In this document: piece after piece, positions 32,864 through 45,916 of the stretch
How positions within the stretch are numbered: the first letter of the stretch is position 1
How the letters are laid out: each line of letters starts with the position of its first letter
Source of the DNA: Caballeronia insecticola
Lineage (GTDB): Bacteria; Pseudomonadota; Gammaproteobacteria; Burkholderiales; Burkholderiaceae
Assembly: GCF_000402035.1 (NCBI RefSeq)
Contig: NC_021289.1
Span: 1,054,001-1,118,000, forward strand
DNA length: 64,000 nucleotides
Direction: 5' to 3'
The notes under the pieces: generated by a model
Seen by the model: the letters and a program-made list of their open reading frames with translations, nothing else
The model's database searches: none
What the model was told of the DNA's origin: nothing
Translations under genes and position numbers: made by a program

Positions 32864-32906
32864 GCGCGGCTCGCGTTCCTTCGGGACGCGGGCCGCGTGT
32901 GTTTTC
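32864..32906 (+). terminator. Rho-independent terminator after the chemoreceptor gene
   Basis: A stem of about 15 pairs (32864-32878 with 32884-32898, including a few G-U) closes a CTTCG loop and is followed by GTGTTTTC. It lies 22 bases after the MCP stop and reaches into the last codon of the convergent LysR gene. Confidence 0.65.
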
Positions 32907-33831
32907 AGCGACGTGTCTTCACAACCGGGCGCTTTCGCTTCGTATCCGCCTTCATCGCGGGCACGCCCACACGCTCGCGCAAATACTCGACGGTCCGCAC
33001 GCAGCGCGCGGGCAGCGGCCATTCCGCTCGATGAATGAGCCACAACGTATCGACCACAGGCGCGCCGCATTCGACGACACCGACCGCCTCCGGCTTGCCG
33101 AACGCGATGCGCGCATAACGCGGTATCACGGTGAAGCCGAGACCGCGCGCGACGAATTCCGGAATCAGGCTGATCTGGTTGCTGAAGCCTTGCCGCCGCA
33201 GGCTCGCTACGCCCGGATTGCCCGGAAAGCGCCGGCTCAATAGACGGCTCGCCGTCACGTGCGCTTCGGGATAATCGATAAAGCCGAGCCGTTCGAGATC
33301 GCTCCAATCATGCACGTCGGCGTTCGCCGGCACGACGAGTTCGAGCGGCTCCTCGATGAACTTGCTCGCGGCAAGACGCGGATCGTCGGGCCTGAGCGCG
33401 ACGATGCCGAGATCGTAGCGGCTCTGCAGCACCGATTCGAGCACTTCGGAATCCGGCGCGAAGCGATGCCGCATCTTCCATTCAGGGCGCTGCTGCTGCA
33501 AATCCAGCAATAACGGAAACAGCACGAGCCCGATGCTGCCCGGCGTGATGAGACCGATCTCGCCGGGTTCGTCCTCGCTGTCGGACAGACGCGACGCGAG
33601 ACGCTTGTCCGCCCGCTCCATCTCCTCGCAATAGTCGATCAGCGCGTGACCCGCCGGCGTCAGTTCGATGCCGCGCGGACGGCGGATCACAAGCAGGCCG
33701 AGTTCGTCTTCGAGATGCCGCAGATGCTGGCTCACAGCGGCCTGCGTCAGATCGAGCCGCGCGGCGGCGCGCGTGAAGTTGCCGAGTTCGACGAGCGCGA
33801 GAAAAGTGCGCAGCCATTGCGGATTGAGCAT
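32905..33831 (-). CDS. LysR-family transcriptional regulator
   Basis: A 308-residue LysR protein with HTH GNFTRAAARLDLTQAAVSQHL and an effector domain. The ATG at 33831 is used; a GTG lies directly before it. A basic tail (TKRKRPVVKTRR) ends the chain. It is divergent from the Old Yellow Enzyme gene and its own probable operator (33841-33855) lies in the 113-base gap, so that gene is the likely target. It is also the closest regulator gene to the gallate operon, but about 1.2 kb beyond that operon's 3' end. Confidence 0.92.
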   Translation of the reverse strand: MLNPQWLRTFLALVELGNFTRAAARLDLTQAAVSQHLRHLEDELGLLVIRRPRGIELTPAGHALIDYCEEMERADKRLASRLSDSEDEPGEIGLITPGSIGLVLFPLLLDLQQQRPEWKMRHRFAPDSEVLESVLQSRYDLGIVALRPDDPRLAASKFIEEPLELVVPANADVHDWSDLERLGFIDYPEAHVTASRLLSRRFPGNPGVASLRRQGFSNQISLIPEFVARGLGFTVIPRYARIAFGKPEAVGVVECGAPVVDTLWLIHRAEWPLPARCVRTVEYLRERVGVPAMKADTKRKRPVVKTRR

Positions 33832-33840
33832 CACAAAATT

Positions 33841-33855
33841 TTATCGAATCGATAA
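33841..33855. promoter_or_regulatory. LysR-type operator between LysR and Old Yellow Enzyme genes
   Basis: TTATCG-AAT-CGATAA is a perfect 6-bp dyad with a 3-base centre and contains a T-N11-A pair. It begins ten bases upstream of the LysR start codon, a place suited to autorepression and divergent activation. Confidence 0.6.
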
Positions 33856-33944
33856 CCGGTAGATGGTTTTCATTATAGCGTCCGGAGGGTAATCTCGAAG
33901 CCTTGATTCAACCGGCTTCGGCCATTCGCTCCAGAGAACACTTC

Positions 33945-35045
33945 ATGTCAGCACTTTTCACTCCGTTCAAACTGAAGGACGTCACCCTGCGCAACCGCAT
34001 CGCGATTCCGCCGATGTGCCAGTACAGCGCCATCGACGGCTTCATCAACGACTGGCACATCAGCCATTACGCGAGCCTCGCGCGCGGCGGCGCGGGCCTC
34101 GTGATCGTCGAGGCGACGGCCGTGTCGCCGGAAGGACGCATCACGCCGGGCTGCACCGGCCTCTGGGACGATGCGCAGATCGAAGGCATGGCGCGCGTCG
34201 CGGCGGCGATCAAGGCGGCGGGCGCGGTGCCCGGCATCCAGATTGCGCACGCGGGCCGCAAGGCGAGCGCGAACCGTCCGTGGGAAGGCGACGACCATAT
34301 CGCACCGGACGACTCCCGCGGCTGGGACACGCTCGCGCCTTCGGCCGTCGCTTTCGGTGCGGGCTTGCCGAAGGTGCCCAAGGCCATGACGCTCGCGGAA
34401 ATCGAACGCGTGAAGGCGGACTTCGCGGCGGCAGCGCGGCGTGCGCGCGAGGCCGGTTTCGAATGGCTCGAACTGCACTTTGCGCATGGCTATCTTGCGC
34501 AAAGCTTCTTTTCCGTCGATGCGAATCAGCGCGACGATCAATACGGCGGCGATCTTGCGGGCCGCAGCCGCTTTATCGTCGAGACCTTCGATGCCGTGCG
34601 CGATGCGTGGCCGAATAACCTGCCGCTGACGGCGCGCTTCGGCGTGATCGAATACGACGGGCGCGACGAACTCACGCTCAAGGAGTCGATCGAACTGACG
34701 AAGACACTGCGCCGCAAGGGTCTCGATCTGATGAGCGTGAGCGTGGGCTTCTCGACGCCCGCCGCGCGCATTCCGTGGGGTCCGGCGTTTCTCGGGCCGA
34801 TCTCGCAGCGTGTGCGCCGTGAAGCGGAGATTCCGGTTGCATCGGCGTGGGGTTTCGATTCGCCGCCCAACGCGGAACACGCTGTCGAAGCGGGGCAACT
34901 CGATCTCGTGATGGTCGGCCGCGCGCATCTGTCGAATCCGCATTGGCCGTATCACGCGGCGAAGCAGTTGAAGGTCGAGCGGCCGTCGTGGGCGTTGCCC
35001 GCGCCCTATGCGCATTGGCTGGAGCGTTACGCGGTCGCGGAATGA
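33945..35045 (+). CDS. Old Yellow Enzyme family NADH:flavin oxidoreductase (YqjM/XenA-like)
   Basis: A 366-residue TIM-barrel flavoprotein. The N-terminus LFTPFKLKDVTLRNRIAIPPMCQYSA holds the cysteine typical of the thermophilic-like/YqjM class; HAGRKAS, FEWLELHFAHGYLAQSFFS and DQYGGDLAGRSRFIVE follow, with H and Y residues of the active site. The family reduces activated C=C bonds of enones, nitroesters or other electrophiles. Start at 33945 is chosen to match the family. The divergent LysR gene probably controls it. Confidence 0.92.
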   Translation: MSALFTPFKLKDVTLRNRIAIPPMCQYSAIDGFINDWHISHYASLARGGAGLVIVEATAVSPEGRITPGCTGLWDDAQIEGMARVAAAIKAAGAVPGIQIAHAGRKASANRPWEGDDHIAPDDSRGWDTLAPSAVAFGAGLPKVPKAMTLAEIERVKADFAAAARRAREAGFEWLELHFAHGYLAQSFFSVDANQRDDQYGGDLAGRSRFIVETFDAVRDAWPNNLPLTARFGVIEYDGRDELTLKESIELTKTLRRKGLDLMSVSVGFSTPAARIPWGPAFLGPISQRVRREAEIPVASAWGFDSPPNAEHAVEAGQLDLVMVGRAHLSNPHWPYHAAKQLKVERPSWALPAPYAHWLERYAVAE

Positions 35046-35061: not shown

Positions 35062-35084
35062 GGCGCGCAGCTATTTTGCGCGCC
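35062..35084. terminator. Hairpin at the convergent ends of the OYE gene and the gallate operon
   Basis: GGCGCGCA and TGCGCGCC form a perfect 8-bp stem with a 7-base loop, 17 bases after the OYE stop and overlapping the last codons of the final gallate-operon gene. It probably ends transcripts from both sides. Confidence 0.5.
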
Positions 35085-35457
35085 GAATCGCCGCGTTCGC
35101 CGCCTGCGTCGCGAGGTCGGCGTAGAGTTCGGCCCATTTGCCGAGCAGCGACGTATCGTTGGTAAGAAAGAGCGGCGCGGTGATCCATGCGCTCACCGTG
35201 CCGTCCTGCACTTCATCTTCGAAGACGCGCAAGTCGCGGTCTTCGCTCACGCCCGCACGCATCAGCGTGGCAAACGAACGCACGTCTTCCACGCGCGACT
35301 CTTGAAGCGGCACGTCATACAGCATCGCCATTGCCGTGCGTACCTTGCGAGACGCGCTATCCCGGCTGTCGGCGAGCACGAACGCAACGACAGCCGGCGT
35401 CGTCATGCGCACGCGAAAGAGCGACGCGCGGCAGCGTTCGCTCAACTGCGTGTTCAT
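35071..35457 (-). CDS. Hypothetical protein, last gene of the gallate operon
   Basis: A 128-residue cytoplasmic protein that I do not recognise. It appears mostly alpha-helical (SASRKVRTAMAMLYDV, VEDVRSFATLMRAGV, LLGKWAELYADLATQAANAAIRR) with a central VSAWITAPLFLTNDTSLL. There is no signal peptide, metal motif or nucleotide loop. The ATG at 35457 overlaps the stop of the preceding gene (ATGA), so it is translationally coupled to the binding-protein-like gene. That coupling makes a role in the gallate pathway or its control likely, but the function is unknown. Confidence 0.6.
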   Translation of the reverse strand: MNTQLSERCRASLFRVRMTTPAVVAFVLADSRDSASRKVRTAMAMLYDVPLQESRVEDVRSFATLMRAGVSEDRDLRVFEDEVQDGTVSAWITAPLFLTNDTSLLGKWAELYADLATQAANAAIRRAK

Positions 35458-36149
35458 CGCACCGGCTCCATGCCGTGCAGCACTTTCGTCGTATCGGCAT
35501 CGCGCGACATGGCGTAATCGAGAAATGCGCGCGCCGCTTCCGGCACACGCGCATTCGCGCAAACCGCGCCTTCGAATATCGTGAGCGTCTGGATTTCATG
35601 CGGCAACATGCCGAGCACGTCGATGCCCGCGACGCCGATCATCTCGCTCAACTGCTGAAAGCCGAGTTCGACTTCACCGCGCGCGATGAGCGTGCCCACC
35701 GCGACACCCGGCGGCGCCTGCACGATGCGCGGCGCGATCTCATGCGCGATTCCCCATCGTTCGAACAGATGCGCGAGATGCACGCCGCTCGGTCCTGTCG
35801 AATAGCCGATGCTGCGCGCCGCGCGCACTGCGTCACGCACGGCCGCTTCGTCGTCGATACGTGGATGCGCCGCGCCTGCCGCGACCGCCATCGCCACGCC
35901 CGAACGCGCGATGCTCACGCGGCTCGATGCATCGATGCGCTTCGAAGCCGCGAGCGCATCGATCGCGTTCGATGACAGCACGACGATATCGAACGCTTCG
36001 CCTTCTTGCACACGCTTCGCCGCCGCGACGCCGCCCACCGATTCGATCGTCACGCGCTGTCCCGAACGCGCTTCGAAGGATGATGCAAGATCGGCGAGCA
36101 CCTGACGCGTCGCCATCGATGAAATGCAGGTAACGATGATGTCGCTCAT
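35454..36149 (-). CDS. ModA-like substrate-binding-fold protein without signal peptide
   Basis: A 231-residue protein with the type 2 periplasmic-binding-protein fold resembling molybdate-binding ModA: VTCISSMATRQVLADLASSFEARSG at the start, EAFDIVVLSSNAIDAL, GYSTGPSGVHLAHLFERWGI, and a C-terminal ARAFLDYAMSRDADTTKVLHG. Unlike ModA it begins directly with the first strand and has no leader, so it should be cytoplasmic; no upstream in-frame sequence resembles a leader. No ABC permease or ATPase is adjacent. Its start overlaps the ligK stop and its own stop overlaps the next start, tying it to the gallate operon. Confidence 0.7.
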   Translation of the reverse strand: MSDIIVTCISSMATRQVLADLASSFEARSGQRVTIESVGGVAAAKRVQEGEAFDIVVLSSNAIDALAASKRIDASSRVSIARSGVAMAVAAGAAHPRIDDEAAVRDAVRAARSIGYSTGPSGVHLAHLFERWGIAHEIAPRIVQAPPGVAVGTLIARGEVELGFQQLSEMIGVAGIDVLGMLPHEIQTLTIFEGAVCANARVPEAARAFLDYAMSRDADTTKVLHGMEPVR

Positions 36150-36832
36150 CAGTCGATATAGCGCAAGCCCGCGCGCTCGAGCGGCTCGCGCATGTTGTAC
36201 ATGTCGAGGCCGAGCACGCCACTCGCGAGCTTCGCGCGCTTCTCTTCTTCCAGCGCCTCGCGCGCGGTGGCCTTGTCGAGCACTTGCGCCGCCATGGCCG
36301 ACGGCACGACGACCACGCCATCGTCATCCGCGACGATCACATCGCCCGGCGTCGCGAGCGCGCCCGCGCACACCACGGGAATATTCACGGAGCCGAGCGT
36401 TGCCTTCACCGTGCCCTTTGCGGAAATCGCCTTGCTCCAGACCGGAAAACTCATCTCGGTCAGCACGCGCACATCGCGCACACCGCCATCGATGATCAAC
36501 GCCTTCGCACCGCGCGCCTTGAAGCTCGTCGCGAGCAGGTCGCCGAAGAAGCCGTCGGTGTTGTCGGTGGTACATGCGGCCACGACGATATCGCCCGGCC
36601 GGATCTGTTCCGCCGCGACATGCAGCATCCAGTTGTCGCCCGGTTGCAGCAGCACGGTCACCGCCGTGCCGCTTGCCTGCGCACCGGTGTAGATGGGCCG
36701 CATGTACGTCTTCATCAAGCCGACGCGTCCCATTGCTTCGTGCACGGTTGCCGAGCCGAGCGCGCCGAGCTTCTCGGCGACGTTGGCATCGGCACGTCGG
36801 ATGTTGCGATAAACCACTCCCAGTTCATACAT
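36149..36832 (-). CDS. ligK: 4-carboxy-4-hydroxy-2-oxoadipate aldolase / oxaloacetate decarboxylase
   Basis: A 227-residue RraA-fold class II aldolase (LigK/GalC/ProA family), which cleaves 4-carboxy-4-hydroxy-2-oxoadipate to pyruvate and oxaloacetate with a divalent metal. The substrate loop [14 protein letters not shown] and the metal/active-site segment [10 protein letters not shown] (R119, D120) are present, and [14 protein letters not shown] opens the fold. Length is the family norm. It begins two bases after the ligJ stop, and its own stop overlaps the next gene. It completes the gallate pathway within this operon. Confidence 0.92.
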
Positions 36833-36834
36833 GA

Positions 36835-37860
36835 TCAGCGTCCCTTCGCTTTGAGCGCCGCATCCAGGCGCGGATACACGCGGCGCGCGTTGCCTTCGTA
36901 AATCTTGTAGCGCGCTTCGGGTTCGATTTGCGCGGCTTCGACATAACGCTTCGTGTCGTCGAAATAATGTCCCGTTTCAGGATCGATGCCGCGCACCGCG
37001 CCGATCATCTCGCTTGCGAACAGAATGTTGTCGACGGGAATCACGCGCGTCAGCAGATCGATGCCCGGCTGGTGATACACGCAGGTATCGAAGAACACAT
37101 TGTTCAGCAAATGATCCTTCAGCAAAGGCTTTTTCAGCTCTTGCGCGAGGCCACGAAAACGTCCCCAGTGATACGGCACCGCGCCGCCGCCGTGCGGAAT
37201 CACGAACTTGAGCGTCGGGAAATCGCGGAACAAATCGGAGGTCAGGCATTGCATGAACGCGGTCGTGTCGGCATTCAGGTAATGCGCGCCCGTCGTATGA
37301 AAGCACGCGTTGCAGCTCGTACTTACGTGGATCATCGCGGGAATGTCGTACTCGACCATCTTCTCGTAGATCGGATACCAGTAACGGTCCGAGAGCGGCG
37401 GGCTCGTCCAGTGGCCGCCCGAAGGATCGGGATTCAGGTTGATCGCCACATTGCCGTATTGCTCGACGCACTTGACGAGTTCGGGAATGCACGTCGATAC
37501 ATCGACGCCCGGGCTTTGCGGCAACATCGCCGCCGGAATGAAGCTGTCCGGGAACAGCTCGCTCACGCGAAAGCACAGCTCGTTGCAGATCGCGGCCCAC
37601 GTACTCGACACCTCGAAGTCGCCGATGTGATGCGCCATGAAACTCGCGCGGGGACTGAAGAGGGTGAGATCGAGCCCGCGCTCGCGCATCAGGCGCAACT
37701 GATTCGCTTCGATCGATTCGCGCAGTTCGTCGTCGCTGATATGCAGGTCGGACGCGCGCGGCATCTCGGCGGGACTCTTGATGCCGGCGATCTGCTGATT
37801 GCGCCACGCTTCGAGCGCCTTGGGCGCGGTCGTGTAGTGGCCGTGTATGTCGATGATCAT
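36835..37860 (-). CDS. ligJ: 4-oxalomesaconate hydratase (LigJ type)
   Basis: A 341-residue amidohydrolase-superfamily hydratase that adds water to 4-oxalomesaconate, giving 4-carboxy-4-hydroxy-2-oxoadipate. The metal motif DIHGHY is at the N-terminus, [16 protein letters not shown] and [17 protein letters not shown] follow, and [16 protein letters not shown] carries the late acidic ligand region. This is the LigJ form, not the PIG-L-type GalB of Pseudomonas putida. The ATG at 37860 has GGAG seven bases before it. It lies between the MFS gene (15-base gap) and ligK (2-base gap). Confidence 0.9.
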
Positions 37861-37875
37861 GCTTGACTCCAAGTA

Positions 37876-39225
37876 CTAGTGTGCTGCATTCGTCTGCGCG
37901 TGCGCTTCGTCCACATGCGTGCGCTGCGCGACGAGAATGGCGATGGCGGCGAGCGTTGCGGGCACGGCGAGCATCGCGAGGATCGCGCCGAATTCCCAGC
38001 CGAGGCCGAGCAGCGCGCCCCCGAATGCGGAACCGAAGATGCTGCCGAAGCGGCCCATGCCGAGCATCCAGCTCACGCCGGTGGCGCGCGCAACTGTCGG
38101 ATAACGTCCCGGCGCGAATGCGTTCAGACCGGTTTGCGCGCCGCTCATGCAGAAGCCCGCGGCAAACACGACCATCGCAAGCGACGACGACAGCGCGCCG
38201 ATCCACGCCAGCCCGAGCACGCACACCGCGCCGCCGAGATATGCCGCGCTGATGACCGGCGCGGGTCGTGCTTTGTCCATGATCCATCCGACGATGACCG
38301 CGCCGATCGTGCCGCCGATCTGGAACATCGCCGTGATATTGGCCGCCGCCGAGACGGTGAGGCCCGCGTCCTTCATCAGCGTCGGCAGCCAGCCCGTCAG
38401 CAGATAGATCACGAGCAGGCCCATGAAATACGTGACCCACAATGCCGCCGTCATCAGGCCGTAACCGTGCGAGAAGAGTACGCCGAGCGGCTTCTTGGTG
38501 GGCAGCGGCGGCTCCGTCGATACGAACGTCTCGTTGCCGTCGAAACGCGCGCCGCACACGCGGCCCAGCACGCGGCCGATGCGCGCCGACGTCGCGCCGC
38601 GCACCGCGAGCAGACGCGCGGATTCGGGCAGCAGCCAGATTTGCAGCGGAATCAGCGCAAGCGGCAGCGCACCGCCGAAGATCAGCACCGAGCGCCAGCC
38701 ATGCGCCGGAATCAGCCAGCCCGCGACGAAGCCGATCAACGCCGAGCCCAGATTGAAGCCCGTGAACATGATCGTGATGAGCAGCGCGCGCTTGCGTTGC
38801 GGCGCGTACTCGGAGAGCAGCGTCGTCGTGTTGGGCATCGCGGCGCCCAGGCCGATGCCGGTCAGAAGGCGCAGCACCGCCATGCTCGTGGGCGAGTTCG
38901 TGAACGCAGTGGCGATGGTGAACACGCCAAAGAGAAACACCGAAGTGATGAGCACCCACTTGCGCCCGATGCGGTCCGATGCCGGTCCGGCCGTCAGCGC
39001 GCCGATCACGAGGCCGATGGGCGCTGCGCTCATCACGAGGCCGAACGCGGGCCGCGAGATGTGCCAGTCCGCAATGATCGACGGCGCGATGAAGCCCATG
39101 ATGGCCACATCCATGCCGTCGGCCGCGACGATCAGAAAGCACAGCGCCACCAGCAGCCACTGGTAGGCGGAAATGGGCCGCTCGTCGATAAAGCCCTTGA
39201 TGTCGATGGTTCTGCCGAATGTCAT
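37876..39225 (-). CDS. MFS aromatic acid:H+ symporter, probable gallate transporter
   Basis: A 449-residue major facilitator of the aromatic acid:H+ symporter group (PcaK/BenK/GalT-like). The first helix carries AADGMDVAIMGFIAP, where the conserved aspartate (DGxD pattern) couples protons, and GPASDRIGRKWVL is the helix 2-3 loop. LPESARLL follows helix 6. It starts 25 bases after the gallate dioxygenase stop and ends 15 bases before ligJ, so it is surely in the same operon and most likely imports gallate or a related phenolic acid. Confidence 0.88.
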   Translation of the reverse strand: MTFGRTIDIKGFIDERPISAYQWLLVALCFLIVAADGMDVAIMGFIAPSIIADWHISRPAFGLVMSAAPIGLVIGALTAGPASDRIGRKWVLITSVFLFGVFTIATAFTNSPTSMAVLRLLTGIGLGAAMPNTTTLLSEYAPQRKRALLITIMFTGFNLGSALIGFVAGWLIPAHGWRSVLIFGGALPLALIPLQIWLLPESARLLAVRGATSARIGRVLGRVCGARFDGNETFVSTEPPLPTKKPLGVLFSHGYGLMTAALWVTYFMGLLVIYLLTGWLPTLMKDAGLTVSAAANITAMFQIGGTIGAVIVGWIMDKARPAPVISAAYLGGAVCVLGLAWIGALSSSLAMVVFAAGFCMSGAQTGLNAFAPGRYPTVARATGVSWMLGMGRFGSIFGSAFGGALLGLGWEFGAILAMLAVPATLAAIAILVAQRTHVDEAHAQTNAAH

Positions 39226-39250
39226 GGTTGTCTCCCCTCTCCGTTATGTC

Positions 39251-40552
39251 TTAGCTCTTGGCTTTGCCGGCCTGATCCCAGTCGAGCTTGCCCGCGCCCT
39301 TGCCTGCGACCGAATACAGCGCGCCGGGCGCATTGCGTGTCTTCTGGAATGCTTCGAGCGTTTCGCCGCGCATCGCCGCATAGATATGCAGATTCGATAC
39401 GCCCGTCACCGCGCCGAGCTTTTCGAGCATGAAGAAGATCACGCCGTAGTGAAGCAGCCCGCGCCAGTCGCGGCGGCGAATGAGTTCGCGCTCTTCGTCG
39501 GACAGACCTGCCGCCTCGAAGCTCGCTTCTTCGTCCTGCTTGAACGCCTCGCGATGCGCGGGCTCGACCATGCGATGCAGATAGTCGTTGATGCGATACG
39601 CGCGCACGGCCGTTTCGATCGAGAACGGATAGGTGCCTTCGAGCTTCTCGACACCCGCGAGCTGCATGTCCATCTTGCGGCGATGACGCTCGACGATCGC
39701 AGGCGTGGTCTCGCTGTCCTCGCCTTCGTAGATCGCGGTTGCGATGCCGGCCATCGACGGGAGGTAATAGCTGCGGTGCTTGCACACGACGTTGTTCGAC
39801 AACGCGCCGCGCATCGTGAGCCACATGATCACTTCCGCACCTTCGTAGCCGCCGAGCGCGGCATATTCGGCGATGGTCATGTCCGCGAGCTGTTCGGGAT
39901 CGCGTTCGAAGAGATCGAGGAAGCGCGCATCCCATTCCGTGTTGTTGAAGCCCGCGCGCTCGCCGTGCACCTGATGCGAGAGACCGCCCGTCGCGAGAAT
40001 CGCCACCTTGAGGTCTTCCGGATAACTTTCGATCGCGCGGCGCAGCGCCTGGCCGAGCTTGTAGAAGCGGCGCGCGCTCGGCACCGGCAGTTGCAGCACG
40101 CCCATTTGCAGCGGCACGAGCTTGACCGGCCATTCGGGCTTGTGCGGACACAGCATCGAGAGCGGCGAGAAGCAGCCGTGATCGAGCGCCTTGTTCTGGA
40201 AGAACGACATGTCGAATTCATCGCTCATCAACGACGTGCCGATGTGCGCGGCAAGCGCCGGATGACCCTTGATCGGCGGCAGATCGCGCGCGCCGCCGCC
40301 TTCGTCCGCGACACGCCATTCGGGGCCCACGCCCAGCGAAAATGCCGAATAGTGATCGAAGAAGAACGACGTGACGTGATCGTTGTAGATCGTGACGATG
40401 ACGTCCGGTTGCTTCTCCGCGAGCCAGTTCGCGAGCGGCGCGAAGTTCTCGAAGATCGGCGCCCAGACGGGATCGTCGCGCTTGTTCTTGTCGAACGCGA
40501 AGCCGATCGTCGGCGTGTGCGAGGCGGCGATGCCTCCGATGATCCGTGCCAT
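39251..40552 (-). CDS. galA: Gallate dioxygenase (class III extradiol, LigAB fusion type)
   Basis: A 433-residue ring-cleaving dioxygenase that should convert gallate plus O2 to 4-oxalomesaconate. The LigB-like N-terminal domain has H12 and H59 (HTP, NDHV) and E240 (YEGAEVIMW) as probable Fe(II) ligands and H124/H192 at the active site, at positions close to those known for DesB. A LigA-like helical domain is fused at the C-terminus (EERELIRRRDWRGLLHYGVIFFMLEKL). The fusion and length separate it from two-subunit protocatechuate 4,5-dioxygenase. AAGGAG precedes the ATG. It is the first gene of the operon. Confidence 0.9.
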   Translation of the reverse strand: MARIIGGIAASHTPTIGFAFDKNKRDDPVWAPIFENFAPLANWLAEKQPDVIVTIYNDHVTSFFFDHYSAFSLGVGPEWRVADEGGGARDLPPIKGHPALAAHIGTSLMSDEFDMSFFQNKALDHGCFSPLSMLCPHKPEWPVKLVPLQMGVLQLPVPSARRFYKLGQALRRAIESYPEDLKVAILATGGLSHQVHGERAGFNNTEWDARFLDLFERDPEQLADMTIAEYAALGGYEGAEVIMWLTMRGALSNNVVCKHRSYYLPSMAGIATAIYEGEDSETTPAIVERHRRKMDMQLAGVEKLEGTYPFSIETAVRAYRINDYLHRMVEPAHREAFKQDEEASFEAAGLSDEERELIRRRDWRGLLHYGVIFFMLEKLGAVTGVSNLHIYAAMRGETLEAFQKTRNAPGALYSVAGKGAGKLDWDQAGKAKS

Positions 40553-40890: not shown

Positions 40891-41277
40891 ATGACCGCAG
40901 ACGAGCTTTCGCAACGCTATCGCGCGTACATTGCCTGCTTGAACGCGCAGGACTGGCGCAACCTCGGCACCTTCGTCGGCGACGCGCCGCACTACAATGG
41001 GCGCGCGATCACGCTCGCGGATTATCGTGCCATGCTGGAGCGCGACTTCCGCGAAATCCCGGATCTGTTCTTCGACATTGAACTGCTCATTGCCGAGCCG
41101 CCGACGATCGCCGCGCGCCTGCGCTTCGACTGCACGCCGAAGGCCGATTTCATGGGCCTGCCTGTGAATGGAAAGCGCGTCGTGTTCTGCGAGAACGTCT
41201 TCTATGCGTTTCGCGAGGGCAAGATCGACAACGTCTGGTCGGTGATCGACAAGGCCGCGATCGAGGCGCAGCTTTAG
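40891..41277 (+). CDS. SnoaL-like / ketosteroid isomerase-fold protein
   Basis: A 128-residue NTF2-fold protein of the SnoaL/ester cyclase-like group. LSQRYRAYIACLNAQDW and the cone-shaped fold pattern PPTIAARLRFDCTPKADFMGLPVNGKRVVFCENVFYAFREGKIDNVWSVIDKAA are typical. AAGGAG precedes the ATG. It is divergent from the gallate operon and convergent, with a 3-base gap, to the sulfonate ABC ATPase gene. Members isomerise, cyclise or hydrate small organic molecules. A link to gallate breakdown is only positional. Confidence 0.8.
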   Translation: MTADELSQRYRAYIACLNAQDWRNLGTFVGDAPHYNGRAITLADYRAMLERDFREIPDLFFDIELLIAEPPTIAARLRFDCTPKADFMGLPVNGKRVVFCENVFYAFREGKIDNVWSVIDKAAIEAQL

Positions 41278-41280
41278 ATG

Positions 41281-42051
41281 TCAGATAGCATCCGTGAAGA
41301 ACGTCTCCACGATGTCGTCACGCAGCTTGCCTACGCCGCGATCGCCCAGTTTTCTCGGCCTCGGCAACGTGACGTCGATCACTTCGCCGATTCGTCCGGG
41401 CCGCGCCTGCATCACGACAATGCGGTCCGACAATAGCACCGCTTCCTCGACATCGTGCGTGACGAGCACCATCGTAATGCGCTCGCTCTCCCAGATACGT
41501 TGCAATTCGAGTTGCAAACGCGCGCGCGTGAGCGCATCGAGCGCGCCGAAGGGTTCATCGAGCAATAGCAGGCGCGGCCGGTTGACGAGCCCGCGCGCAA
41601 TGGCGACACGCTGCGCCATCCCGCCCGACAACTGATGCGGATAGTGCCGCTCATAGCCTTGCAATCCGACGAGCGCGACATGCTCCTTCACCGCGCGCGC
41701 CTTCTCCGCTTTCGACAGCGGCGCATTGCGCAGCGCGACGGCCACGTTCTGTTCGACATCGAGCCACGGAAACAGCCGATGATCCTGAAACACGATGCCG
41801 CGCGACAAGTCCGTCGTGACGACGCGTGCGCCGCCGAAATCGATCTCGCCGTCGTAGTCGGCATCGAGTCCCGCGATCAGCCGCAGTAACGTCGATTTGC
41901 CGCAACCGCTCGCCCCGACGATACTCACGAACTCGCCGCTCGCAATCGACAGGTCGATGCGTTCGAGTACCGGCGGTGCATCGTCGCCGCTGAATCGCTT
42001 GCTCACATGCCGCAGCGTCAGGCCGCTGTCCTGCTCGATTACCGTTGCCAT
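41281..42051 (-). CDS. Sulfonate/sulfate-ester ABC transporter ATP-binding protein (SsuB-like)
   Basis: A 256-residue ABC ATPase. Walker A GASGCGKST, Q-loop VFQDHRLFPW, signature LSGGMAQRVAIARGL, Walker B RLLLLDEPFGALD and H-loop VLVTHDVEEA are all intact. The Q-loop form and length fit the SsuB/TauB/NitT group. It is the last gene of a five-gene minus-strand operon with two permeases, a binding protein and a TauD-type dioxygenase, and begins 13 bases after the second permease. The start at 42051 avoids a longer unlikely extension. Confidence 0.9.
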   Translation of the reverse strand: MATVIEQDSGLTLRHVSKRFSGDDAPPVLERIDLSIASGEFVSIVGASGCGKSTLLRLIAGLDADYDGEIDFGGARVVTTDLSRGIVFQDHRLFPWLDVEQNVAVALRNAPLSKAEKARAVKEHVALVGLQGYERHYPHQLSGGMAQRVAIARGLVNRPRLLLLDEPFGALDALTRARLQLELQRIWESERITMVLVTHDVEEAVLLSDRIVVMQARPGRIGEVIDVTLPRPRKLGDRGVGKLRDDIVETFFTDAI

Positions 42052-42064
42052 CTTTCTGTTCTCC

Positions 42065-42847
42065 TCAAGCCGCGCGCGAAGGTTCGAACCAGCGTCGCTG
42101 CACGCCGCGCGCGAAGGCATTCAACGCCCACCCCGTTATACCGACCACGATCACGCCGAACACGACGAGATCCATACGAAACTGCTCGCTGCCATCGACG
42201 AGCGTATTGCCGATGCCGCTGCCTGCAACGAGCAGATACTCCGCGCCGAGCGTCGCGAGCCACGAATAGATGAGCGCGAGATAGACGCCCGTGAAGATCG
42301 AAGGCAGCGCGGCCGGCAGCACAACGAAGGCGAGCGTTTGCAACTTGCCATAGCGATACGCGCGCGCCACGTCCAGCAGATGTGGCGGCACGGCGCGAAT
42401 GCCATCGCTCGTATGCATCACGACCGGCACGAGCGCGGCAAGCGACAGGAACACGACCTTCGCGACATCGCCCAGCCCGAACCACACGGAAATCAGCGGA
42501 ATCCACGCGAACAGCGACACTTGCTTAAACGTGTTGAAGCTCGGCGCAATCGCGCGATTGGCGAGCTTCGAAATGCCGAGCAACGCACCGAGCGCAAGGC
42601 CAAGTGTTGTGCCGATAGCGAAGCCCGTCAACTCGCGCGCCAGCGACGCCGACAGCGCCCGCGCAAGCGCCCCGCTTCGCACTTGCGCGACCGCGGTATC
42701 CCATACGTGTGCGGGCGAAACCATGATGCCGTGGCCGACTTGCGCGTGACGCGACACGAACCACCACACAGCAACAGCGACGACCGGCAACACGACGCCG
42801 CGCCATGATCCCTTTGCGCTCCCCGCTTCCAGATCGAGCGTCGACAT
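42065..42847 (-). CDS. ABC transporter permease (SsuC-like)
   Basis: A 260-residue permease with about six membrane helices. The EAA loop for contact with the ATPase reads HLLDVARAYRYGKLQTLAFVVLPAALPSIFTGV. The N-terminus begins a hydrophobic helix at residue ~18. It follows a second, homologous permease gene by 11 bases; the two probably pair as a heterodimer, since most sulfonate importers have only one such gene. Confidence 0.88.
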   Translation of the reverse strand: MSTLDLEAGSAKGSWRGVVLPVVAVAVWWFVSRHAQVGHGIMVSPAHVWDTAVAQVRSGALARALSASLARELTGFAIGTTLGLALGALLGISKLANRAIAPSFNTFKQVSLFAWIPLISVWFGLGDVAKVVFLSLAALVPVVMHTSDGIRAVPPHLLDVARAYRYGKLQTLAFVVLPAALPSIFTGVYLALIYSWLATLGAEYLLVAGSGIGNTLVDGSEQFRMDLVVFGVIVVGITGWALNAFARGVQRRWFEPSRAA

Positions 42848-42858
42848 GATTTTTCTCC

Positions 42859-43695
42859 TCAGTTCGCGCGGCCGCGTTGCAGCTTGCGCTCAAGCGCGTT
42901 GAGCAGACGATCCGCGACATAGCCGATCGCACCGACGATCAGCACGGCAGCGAGCACGAGATCGAGCTGAAAGAGCTGCCGTCCATAAACGATCAGATAC
43001 CCGAGCCCTTCCGAGGACGCGACCAGCTCGACGACAACCAGCGTCAGCCACGCCTTCGTGAACGCGAGCCGCACACCCGTGCCGATGACGGGAATCGCCG
43101 AAGGCAAGGTCACGCGCGTGATCACTTGCCAGCGCGTATAGCGATACACCGACGCCACTTCCTGCAAACCGCGCGGCGTGCCGCGAAAGCCCTGCAACGT
43201 CGAGAGCGTGACCGGCACGAGCGCGGCATGACCGATCAGCAGAAACTTGAGCGGCTCGCCAATGCCGACGACGATCATCAGAAACGGCAGCCAGCCGAGC
43301 ACAGGCACTTGCACGATGGCGTTGAAGCTCGGCAACACATACGCTTCCAGCGTGCGCGACAGGCCGAGCAAACCGCCCAGCAGCACGCCGAGCAGCACGC
43401 CGCCGCCGAAGCCCACGGCTGCGCGCGTCATGCTCGCGGACAGATGCATCCATAGCTCGCCGTTCTTTGCAAGCGCGCCGAGCGTCTCGAACACGAGTGC
43501 GGGCGGCGGCAGCACTTGCGGCGAAATCCAGCCGTAGCGCGCACCGAGCACCCACAACACCGCGCACGCAACCGGCAGGAGCCACGGCAACGCGGTCCAG
43601 CCGATGCCGCGCAGCACATCATGAGTAACAAAACTGCCCGCGCGCTTGGACGTGCGATTCGCCGGCAGCAACACGCGAGTGAGAGCATTGGCCAT
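42859..43695 (-). CDS. ABC transporter permease (SsuC-like)
   Basis: A 278-residue permease of the same family as its downstream neighbour, with about six helices and the EAA loop GLQEVASVYRYTRWQVITRVTLPSAIPVIGTGV. A ~30-residue hydrophilic N-terminal extension (KRAGSFVTHDVLRG) distinguishes it. It follows the substrate-binding protein gene by 21 bases. The two permeases share similar EAA loops, consistent with an old duplication. Confidence 0.88.
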   Translation of the reverse strand: MANALTRVLLPANRTSKRAGSFVTHDVLRGIGWTALPWLLPVACAVLWVLGARYGWISPQVLPPPALVFETLGALAKNGELWMHLSASMTRAAVGFGGGVLLGVLLGGLLGLSRTLEAYVLPSFNAIVQVPVLGWLPFLMIVVGIGEPLKFLLIGHAALVPVTLSTLQGFRGTPRGLQEVASVYRYTRWQVITRVTLPSAIPVIGTGVRLAFTKAWLTLVVVELVASSEGLGYLIVYGRQLFQLDLVLAAVLIVGAIGYVADRLLNALERKLQRGRAN

Positions 43696-43716
43696 GTGTC
43701 GATTCTCCGCAGTGCT

Positions 43717-44781
43717 TCAGGCGATGGGCTTGCCCGACGCATCGAAGCGCGGCCAATAGGCTTCGAGCTTCAGCGACTTCAGCGCCTGATCGAGATACTT
43801 CGGTTCGAACCATCCGTTCACGCTGACCGGCTGACGAATCAGGTTCAGGCGCAAGGCATCATCGGCGACCGATTGATAACGCGCGACGAGAAACGGATCG
43901 ATAAGCGGCGAATTGCGATCCTTCAACGGTTGCTTCGCGTATTCCGACTGCCACGATTCCGGAGGCACGCCGCTCTTCGCCCACAACGCGAAGAGCGCAT
44001 TGCGATTGGCTTCGTCGGAGGACCATTGCGCCGCCTGTACGACCGCAGTCACGACCTTCTGCACCGTCTCCGCATGCTCGCGCTCGTAGTCTTCGAGGAC
44101 GAGCAGATGCGCCTGCCGCGTGAGTTGCAGGCCGCCATCGCGCGATGCGTAGACGATCTTCGCGAGACCCTGCCGTTGCAGCTTGAAGAGCGAGTAGTCG
44201 AGAAACACGGCATCGACGCCCTTCGATGCAAGCGCGGCCTGCGCGGCGGCAGTATCGAGATTGATGACGCGCAGATCGCGCTCGGTCAGGCCGTTCTCTT
44301 TCAGCACGTTGTCCGCGACGAGTTGCAGGTTCGTGCCGCGAAAGATGCCGACGCGTTTGCCCTTCAGATCCTTCACGCCCTTGATGTCCGAGTCGGGCGG
44401 CACCGCGAGATAGACGCCCGCGCGCACGTTCGACGCCAGCAGCAGATGCGTCTTCAGGCCATTGGCGCGGCCCAGCACCGAAGGCAGATCGCCCTGATAC
44501 GCGAAGTCGATCTGCTTGTTCGCGAGCGCCTCGTTCACGGCCGGCCCCGCGCCCTTGAAGAAGATCCATTCGACCTTGACGTGCTCGGACTGCAACGCAT
44601 CTTCGACACGATGCTGCAATTGCGCGGTCGCGGCAGGCGAGCCGCCGAAAGTGGGCGGATCGCCCGAGCCTTGCTGTGCAACGCCGATGCGCACCAGCGC
44701 GGGATCGGCCGCATGCGCGGGGCCGATGAGCGCGGCGAACAGCGTCGCCGCGCCGACGAGGAGCTTGAATCGTAGTGTCAT
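43717..44781 (-). CDS. Sulfonate/sulfate-ester ABC transporter substrate-binding protein (SsuA/AtsR-like)
   Basis: A 354-residue periplasmic binding protein. The signal peptide (LLVGAATLFAALIGPAHA) precedes ADPALVRIGV; VEWIFFKGAGPAVNEALANKQIDFAYQGDLPSVLGRAN is the ligand-lobe pattern of the aliphatic sulfonate family. The mature chain contains no cysteine and no methionine, a mark of proteins made during sulfur starvation. The start at 44781 gives the leader; an extended frame goes to 44823. It lies between the dioxygenase gene and the permeases. Confidence 0.88.
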   Translation of the reverse strand: MTLRFKLLVGAATLFAALIGPAHAADPALVRIGVAQQGSGDPPTFGGSPAATAQLQHRVEDALQSEHVKVEWIFFKGAGPAVNEALANKQIDFAYQGDLPSVLGRANGLKTHLLLASNVRAGVYLAVPPDSDIKGVKDLKGKRVGIFRGTNLQLVADNVLKENGLTERDLRVINLDTAAAQAALASKGVDAVFLDYSLFKLQRQGLAKIVYASRDGGLQLTRQAHLLVLEDYEREHAETVQKVVTAVVQAAQWSSDEANRNALFALWAKSGVPPESWQSEYAKQPLKDRNSPLIDPFLVARYQSVADDALRLNLIRQPVSVNGWFEPKYLDQALKSLKLEAYWPRFDASGKPIA

Positions 44782-44848
44782 CGTGCAATGAAGAAGAATG
44801 GAGGGCGGGCGATGAAGCGTCATCGCCCATGATGCGAAAACGAGCGCG

Positions 44849-45787
44849 TCAGGCGGTGCGCGTTTCCTGCCTGACGATGCGGCTCGTGCGCCCGTCGATG
44901 CTCACGGGCACATCGCCATGAACCGTCGCGCGGCGCACGACGCGATGCGCATCGCCGTAATCGGCCACCGCGTAATGCTGCGTCGCGCGGTTGTCCCAGA
45001 TGGCGACGTCGCCTTGCGTCCAGCGCCAGCGCACCGTGTTTTCGAGGCGCGTGACGTGATCGTGGAAGAGCTCGACGAGGCGATCCGAGTCGCGCTGCGA
45101 CAAGCCGACGAAGCGCTGCACGAAGTGGCCCAGCACCAGCGTGCGTTCGCCGGTTTCCGGATGCACGCGCACGACCGGATGCTCGGTCTCATAGAGCGTG
45201 GAGGTGAACTGCTTGCGATATTCGCGCTCGGATTCCGTATCGGCGACGTGACGCGTCGCGGCATAGTCGTAGGCGTTCGAATGCAGCGCCCACAGCGTGT
45301 CGGCGAGCGCGCGCAGCGGCGGCGGCAAGTTCGCATACGCGGCGGCCGTGTTGGCCCATACGGTATCGCCGCCGGCGGGCGGAATCACTACGCCACGCAG
45401 GATCGAGATCTTCGGGTACGCATCGACGAAGGTGACGTCGGTATGCCAGGAGTTGGCGCGCGTGCCGTGCTTCGAATCGAGTTCGAGCAGACGGCTGCCG
45501 CTCGCAAGCGACGGCACCGTCGGGTGCGCGACCGTCTCGCCGAAGCGCGCCGCGAAGGCTTCCTGCGCGGCATCGTCGAGATGCGACTGGCCACGGAAGA
45601 ACAGCACTTTGTGTTCGAGCAGCGCCTGATTGATCGCGCCGATGGCGGCATCGTCGAGATCGGCGGACAGCGCCACGCCGCGCACTTCCGCACCGATGCG
45701 CCCGCCGATCGGACGCACCTGGAACGGTTCTTGGGAAGCCACAGGTTGACGCGCGGAGTCGGCGGCGAGCGTGGGGGTATCGGACAT
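44849..45787 (-). CDS. TauD/TfdA family Fe(II)/2-oxoglutarate dioxygenase (alkylsulfatase/taurine dioxygenase type)
   Basis: A 312-residue dioxygenase that should hydroxylate a sulfonate or alkyl sulfate ester so that sulfite or sulfate is released. The metal triad is visible as H115-x-D117 (NSWHTDVTF) and H271 (NRATQHYAV), with arginines R282 and R286 for 2-oxoglutarate. The sequence style (DVTFVDAYPKISILRG, QGDVAIWDNRATQHYA) is closest to AtsK-type alkylsulfatases. Apart from the initiator Met it has no Met or Cys. GGAGAA precedes the ATG. First gene of the operon. Confidence 0.88.
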   Translation of the reverse strand: MSDTPTLAADSARQPVASQEPFQVRPIGGRIGAEVRGVALSADLDDAAIGAINQALLEHKVLFFRGQSHLDDAAQEAFAARFGETVAHPTVPSLASGSRLLELDSKHGTRANSWHTDVTFVDAYPKISILRGVVIPPAGGDTVWANTAAAYANLPPPLRALADTLWALHSNAYDYAATRHVADTESEREYRKQFTSTLYETEHPVVRVHPETGERTLVLGHFVQRFVGLSQRDSDRLVELFHDHVTRLENTVRWRWTQGDVAIWDNRATQHYAVADYGDAHRVVRRATVHGDVPVSIDGRTSRIVRQETRTA

Positions 45788-45916
45788 CGAAATTCTCCGT
45801 GGGTTGGCGTTTTGATATGCGTTTGTCGGATGCGGGCCGCGTTGTATGCGGCCAGAACATTGAAGCATCGACAAGGCGCTCAACCAACGAAGCGTTTCGA
45901 CTAAGCTTTACATCGA

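Follow-up and report, generated by a model that had tools for sequence, protein, structure and literature searches.

A gallate operon with a leaderless ModA-fold gene

The stretch of DNA considered here, 64,000 nucleotides of the Caballeronia insecticola contig NC_021289.1 (hereafter the window), carries a gallate operon of six minus-strand genes, which run from 40552 down to 35071 in the order galA, MFS transporter, ligJ, ligK, ModAx and orf128 (Table 1), the last two being our working names. From galA through ligK, the genes are separated by gaps of 25, 15 (to the ligJ ATG at 37860) and 2 bases, ligK and ModAx overlap by 1 base (TGATG), and ModAx and orf128 by 4 bases (ATGA). A reading of the window made from the sequence only had proposed a tight operon of galA, an uptake gene, ligJ and ligK, with coupled gene ends and a ModA-fold protein lacking a leader; gene positions and family scans agree on the first point, the ATGA overlap can be read in the sequence, and ModAx, a member of SBP_bac_11, does begin at the coupled ATG. 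GalA scores 800.9 bits against the gallate dioxygenase equivalog NF009904 (cut-off 412), and its best named match is that of Caballeronia (Burkholderia) peredens, with 97% identity. LigK scores 405.4 bits against TIGR02798 (cut-off 304.5), and the transporter 480.9 bits against the PcaK model, below the cut-off of 770. In relatives, ligJ adjoins ligK in both gallate and protocatechuate-4,5 clusters.

Table 1. Genes of the gallate operon and of its flanks, in window coordinates
Feature	Position	Strand	Family evidence
LysR gene (-) and old-yellow-enzyme gene (+)	32905..35045	- and +	
orf128, small alpha/beta protein, 128 codons	35071..35457	-	no family match
ModAx (PmdU family), leaderless ModA-fold protein, proposed oxalomesaconate isomerase	35454..36149	-	SBP_bac_11
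ligK, CHA aldolase/oxaloacetate decarboxylase	36149..36832	-	TIGR02798
ligJ-type amidohydrolase, 2-keto-4-carboxy-3-hexenedioate (KCH) hydratase	36835..37860	-	Pfam Amidohydro_2; ATG at 37860
MFS aromatic-acid transporter	37876..39225	-	Pfam MFS_1; best NCBIfam PcaK
galA, gallate dioxygenase (LigB and LigA domains)	39251..40552	-	NF009904; Pfam LigB, LigA
SnoaL-like gene, divergent from galA	40891..41277	+	Pfam SnoaL, 121.8 bits
ABC transporter (ATPase, two permeases, NMT1-type binding protein) and TauD-family dioxygenase	41281..45883		

The gallate and protocatechuate-4,5 routes have three steps in common after 4-oxalomesaconate (OMA); as two of these are covered by LigJ and LigK, one is left for ModAx, and this would be the step of the tautomerases GalD and LigU. 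The sequence-only reading had recognised no such tautomerase in the operon, and a wider search bears this out. No PrpF-family gene was found in the window, and the Pfam model of PrpF, run over the whole 6.96 Mb genome, returned a single one, on another contig (C2; L002:6777-7991). Against the PrpF equivalog (cut-off 440.55) this gene reaches 568.8 bits, and against the OMA-tautomerase equivalog NF033377 (cut-off 440) it reaches 304.2 bits; being above the one cut-off and below the other, it is PrpF rather than GalD/LigU, and no GalD/LigU was found elsewhere in the genome. No methylcitrate genes were obvious by eye in the 15 kb around this gene.

The ATG of ModAx overlaps the ligK stop codon, and no leader that could serve as an export signal follows it. 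The predicted fold is that of ModA; nevertheless, the protein would be a poor molybdate-binding component of an ABC transporter, as which it is annotated. In favour of the annotation are the fold and the database names, whereas ModAx lacks a leader, reaches 35 bits against the modA model TIGR01256 (cut-off 62.5), and shares 16-19% identity with molybdate-binding ModA chains that rank high in its match list, from which it also differs at the positions of the motifs GFQQ.SE and GE..D. Moreover, the ABC genes that lie upstream of galA come with an NMT1-type binding protein of their own, so that we regard the molybdate role as scarcely tenable. ModAx is equally unlike GalD/LigU (NF033377; PrpF fold), being unrelated to it in fold and sequence (no match up to E 1), although the proposed step is the same, and so are the operon slots that the two occupy in relatives.

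Alternation of ModAx with the OMA tautomerase

A GalA profile run over the genome collection yielded 567 relatives, from which 80 named loci were retained; at these, LigJ and LigK were counted above 60% identity, and ModAx at 40% identity or above. LigJ or LigK is present at 59 loci, of which 54 carry ModAx without a PrpF-type gene and three, all from Variovorax, carry a PrpF-type gene without ModAx. The three Variovorax genes exceed the OMA-tautomerase cut-off, and ModAx is present at five other Variovorax loci (L093, L094, L109, L110 and L112). The last two of the 59 (L044 and L057) have neither isomerase, and both stop at a contig end. Among the 21 loci that lack LigJ and LigK, ModAx occurs at two, and 19 have neither gene. 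Gene neighbourhoods therefore show strong co-occurrence of ModAx with ligK, a point on which the sequence-only reading had made its proposal depend. At one locus (L059), in the metagenome-assembled genome of a Paraburkholderia symbiont, galA, the MFS gene, ligK and ModAx are each split over at least two reading frames; either the operon is decaying or the assembly is poor.

At the 56 loci with ModAx, with the start taken as the start codon nearest that of the window gene, only a few residues separate the beginning of the protein from the motif (C/S)SMATR, which by eye lies in the first 20 residues at 55 of the 56, the motif of the other (L036) differing at one residue.

Across the Burkholderiales, LigK is above cut-off in 54 of 399 genomes, and these were scanned with a ModAx profile (22 rows; 245 bits or more being taken as strong) and with the OMA-tautomerase model. 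ModAx is found in 25 and the tautomerase above cut-off in 23, with both in none and neither in six; the exclusion has a Fisher p of 5e-10, uncorrected for kinship. Since the genomes are related, swaps within a genus weigh more than this value, and such contrasts are seen in the genera coded g28 (G250 versus G152), g43 (G228 versus G038, G163 and G288) and g70 (G133 versus G093). ModAx adjoins LigJ/LigK or lies within approximately 11 kb of them in 22 of the 25 genomes (G299 being the farthest), and the tautomerase is inside the LigJ/LigK cluster in 21 of the 23. The best LigJ tree (75 rows) requires 10 or more changes between ModAx and tautomerase.

No match to the OMA-tautomerase model at E 0.001 is found in 11 of the 25 ModAx genomes and, because this model reaches even the PrpF of the window genome, we see no PrpF-family gene in those 11. 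This bears on whether the PrpF protein encoded on the other contig might itself perform the isomerisation: it belongs to a related isomerase type and attains 304 bits with the OMA-tautomerase model, but it passes the PrpF cut-off while failing that of the tautomerase, and the 11 genomes would have no counterpart to it, which makes this explanation very improbable.

The 245-bit line is not clean, as G002 has a leader-bearing protein at 248.5 bits in addition to a leaderless one at 287.6 bits; hence, the weaker matches in tautomerase genomes of the Burkholderiales and Comamonas were checked for leaders. A leader was recognised by eye in all 18 inspected, from 17 genomes (L208, L210-L212, L214, L261-L272 and L276, a subset of all weaker matches). 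The weaker matches are evidently a mixed set, since GFQQ is absent from 7 of 16 in one inspected batch; the tricarballylate symporter TcuC lies near one of these 16 (within flanks of about 1.5-3.5 kb). As for the six genomes with neither isomerase, two have fragments at contig ends (of the tautomerase in G271 and of ModAx in G052), and three (G180, G356 and G098) have LigK but no LigJ in the surrounding stretch; the sixth is G010 (see below). The weaker ModAx-profile matches of G180 carry leaders, and the one of G098 is a neighbour of TcuC.

The alternation is seen most closely in the genus coded g70 (53 genomes), which was taken as Comamonas because LigC of loci L255 and L256 is identical at 315 of 317 residues to PmdC of C. 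testosteroni (PDB code: 9azo). LigK is above cut-off in 45 of these genomes, with ModAx in 27, the tautomerase in 18, and none having both or neither; in 44 of the 45, the isomerase gene is on the ligK contig, the starts being 1.8-3.7 kb apart. The eight genomes without LigK comprise one with ModAx, two with the tautomerase and five with neither. The exchange takes place within an otherwise identical operon, namely, tautomerase-MFS-LigJ-LigK-LigI-LigA in G133 versus ModAx-MFS-LigJ-LigK-LigI-LigA in G093. The latter order holds for all seven mapped ModAx-bearing Comamonas loci (L189 and L255-L260); LigB-LigC come next in six of them, and the seventh ends with its contig.

The slot in question is a named one. 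The order of the pmd operon is said, in work by Kamimura of 2010, to be orf1-pmdKEFDABC, with orf1 renamed pmdU; the locus tags of PmdK, PmdF and PmdB in strain KF-1 agree with this order, and in operons of the C. testosteroni type the orf1/pmdU position is held by the ModAx family. Given the shared slot, the simplest reading is that ModAx belongs to the PmdU family of enzymes. The Comamonas gene at the pmdU position has a ModA-type sequence with ~57% identity to the window protein, the same operon slot and the same proposed pathway step; the difference is that it belongs to a protocatechuate-4,5 operon, whereas the window ModAx lies at the distal end of a galA operon, after ligK. We presume that the enzyme type is known genetically already, as PmdU; what appears to be new is its presence in gallate operons, the alternation with GalD/LigU, the kinship of fold and the mislabelling. 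In a passage of a 2025 article (PMC12314914), pmdU is listed together with ligU and galD.

Outside the Burkholderiales, 46 genomes of the same phylum have LigK at E 1e-80, 45 of them above cut-off, and the OMA tautomerase is above cut-off in 36 of the 46. This set does not contradict the alternation and adds no case of ModAx, suggesting that, within the sample, ModAx is mainly a Burkholderiales solution. Both G505 and G746 combine the tautomerase with weak ModAx-like genes. In the family coded f88, leaderless ModAx-like proteins scoring 168-177 bits are encoded away from ligK (L240, L242, L244 and L247), at ~300-330 kb from it on the same contig in L240 and L242; no LigJ was found in the f88 ligK stretches examined (G709, G606, G505 and G670).

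Taken together, these observations lead us to conclude, with a probability of about 0.9, that ModAx is a cytoplasmic isomerase of the PmdU family, built on the ModA (periplasmic-binding-protein) fold, that would carry out the GalD/LigU step; the gap in the gallate operon is thus very probably only apparent. The sequence-only reading had suggested that one of the two terminal genes might supply this step, and the alternation and the orf1/pmdU slot now favour ModAx for it, orf128 being set aside by its occurrence at one of the 80 GalA loci. Several points weigh against our conclusion. In 3 of the 25 Burkholderiales genomes, ModAx lies outside the lig cluster (18 kb away, 60 kb away and on another contig); the well-supported branches of the LigJ tree leave four independent pairs, with a sign test p of 0.25; and a strong ModAx is found in none of the 46 genomes outside the order, the best score there being 195.0 bits. 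At 17 of the 56 loci, the reading frame upstream of ModAx closes within 25 codons, so that a leader would have scarcely any space; the term leaderless rests on homology in the others, and the identification of ModAx with pmdU was made by operon position. Finally, two genomes possess LigJ and LigK but neither isomerase: G010, the true exception among the Burkholderiales, has LigJ-LigK-LigI-LigABC and a 116-bit ModAx-like gene ~22 kb away, and G637 has no tautomerase and a single 139-bit ModAx-like gene on another contig. Either a third solution exists, for which the G010 cluster is a candidate, or this step does not always need an enzyme. By eye, what resembles a TRAP-type transporter gene stands alongside the G010 cluster (L205; LigJ-LigK-LigI-LigA-LigB-LigC).

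These two genomes, which seem to manage without either isomerase, would also suit a role for ModAx as a cytoplasmic binding or sensing protein (an effector buffer, a chaperone or a partner of a regulator), with the isomerisation being spontaneous or due to LigJ. The fold is, after all, that of binding proteins, and the motifs common to ModAx and its secreted relatives (see below) could be ligand-binding residues only. However, the alternation with the tautomerase across 54 Burkholderiales and 45 Comamonas genomes fits an isofunctional enzyme and not a sensor, as does the presence of the tautomerase in the same slot of otherwise identical operons; a binding or sensing role is, therefore, unlikely.

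Secreted relatives and the proposed reaction

The nearest homologues of ModAx are secreted proteins with 31-38% identity to it in the TcuC-linked group, and TcuC adjoins 7 of 16 such loci; ModAx itself shows neither a leader for secretion nor linkage to tricarboxylate uptake. An example is present in the same genome, on contig C2 (L206:8649-10923), where a secreted ModA-like protein is encoded next to a TcuC homologue, with a LysR gene nearby; these genes probably serve the utilization of trans-aconitate or tricarballylate. A precedent for catalysis on this scaffold is the aconitate isomerase of Pseudomonas sp. WU-0701, which Yuhara in 2015 reportedly described as ModA-like, secreted and catalysing the allylic isomerisation of a tricarboxylate. 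The resemblance to our proposal lies in the ModA-like sequence and the allylic shift; the difference is that ModAx is leaderless and encoded in lig/gal operons. LigU is a 1,3-allylic isomerase, and aconitate isomerase acts by the same kind of shift. As OMA resembles tricarboxylates such as aconitate, a tricarboxylate-isomerase scaffold that has lost its leader is a plausible source of an OMA isomerase.

In the pathway that we propose, GalA would open the ring of gallate to give OMA; in the cytoplasm, ModAx would then move a proton between positions 1 and 3 (an allylic shift, formally a keto/enol change), converting OMA to KCH; LigJ would hydrate KCH to CHA, which LigK would split into pyruvate and oxaloacetate. 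Three groups of residues are common to ModAx and the secreted TcuC-linked homologues but not to ModA, namely, Glu51 of GE..D, Ser117 and Ser121 of S..SG, and Gln165, Gln166 and Glu169 of GFQQ.SE; these are candidate catalytic residues. Going further, and with a good deal less assurance, we lean towards the view that PmdU/ModAx and the secreted TcuC-linked proteins (the latter being aconitate isomerases) belong to a single family of allylic isomerases derived from solute-binding proteins, with catalytic motifs (GE..D, S..SG and GFQQ.SE) that are absent from ModA, and that one branch of it, leaderless and cytoplasmic, has repeatedly swapped with the PrpF-fold GalD/LigU in operons for lignin and tannin degradation. 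If so, many proteins annotated as molybdate-binding would be isomerases, and the motifs would offer a sequence signature for picking isomerases out of binding proteins.

ModAx also occurs on plasmids: in the protocatechuate-4,5 operons with ligK on pRE1 (Arthrobacter keyseri) and pASPHE302 (Pseudarthrobacter phenanthrenivorans) it comes last, in one such operon on a Diaphorobacter plasmid it comes first, and on a Methylobacterium plasmid it lies beside ligK. In public records, ModAx genes are named as molybdate-transport or generic substrate-binding proteins. For Caballeronia, Paraburkholderia and Burkholderia, our reading would close the apparent pathway gap in the gallate operons, and it would do the same for protocatechuate-4,5 operons in a range that extends from Comamonas to the Arthrobacter plasmids; automated pathway calls that use the GalD/LigU model would score bacteria with ModAx as incomplete. 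It would also provide a clear example of one operon slot being exchanged between two unrelated folds inside a single genus. In one article (PMC8431788), the ModAx gene of a protocatechuate-4,5 cluster is drawn as pcaT, an 'ABC-type molybdate transport system', and the pathway genes are reported to form one transcriptional unit; the figure legend gives the tautomerase under the names ligU and fldA only, and not for the pcaT cluster. This label is the only trace in a literature search that left most subscription journals outside its scope, and which returned no title tying the OMA tautomerase to binding proteins and no paper joining aconitate isomerase with molybdate-type proteins.

orf128 and the flanking genes

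The second terminal gene, orf128, had been described as encoding a helical protein of 128 residues; the predicted model instead shows a mixed alpha/beta fold in which the C-terminal helix is long. Up to E 0.1, the protein matches nothing in Pfam or NCBIfam, and the model gave no clear structural match. Because it occurs at 1 of the 80 GalA loci (L033, from C. peredens), orf128 is not part of the gallate pathway. Counting the query itself, 47 proteins were retrieved in a search, and the named ones are from Caballeronia or Paraburkholderia. Relatives are present on 17 plasmid records, all with <60% identity, and 7 of these records also carry ModAx, at least 130 kb apart by record coordinates. 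The ATGA coupling in the window might suggest that orf128 is the isomerase, or a partner that ModAx requires, but in view of its rarity at GalA loci and its distance from ModAx on the plasmids, this is highly unlikely. Some of the relatives encoded elsewhere in Paraburkholderia (P0142, P0150, P0154, P0155 and others) have an N-terminal extension that resembles a membrane anchor.

The SnoaL-like gene divergent from galA is present at 5 of the 80 GalA loci (at least 35% identity), all in Caballeronia. It could be considered for the isomerase on account of its Pfam match, its position next to galA and the precedent of MgaD, a SnoaL-type protein that, in a passage of the article cited above (PMC12314914), is proposed for an OMA-forming tautomerisation in syringate breakdown by Pseudomonas sp. 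NGC7. Against this, its distribution is confined to Caballeronia, and the substrate of MgaD is a different one (CHMA), so that we hold such a function to be very doubtful indeed.

Downstream of the operon, the LysR and old-yellow-enzyme genes are found (at 60% identity or above) at nine and eight of the 80 GalA loci, respectively; the former is a possible regulator. On the other side, the ABC transporter and TauD-family dioxygenase genes beyond the SnoaL-like gene probably serve the use of sulfonates.

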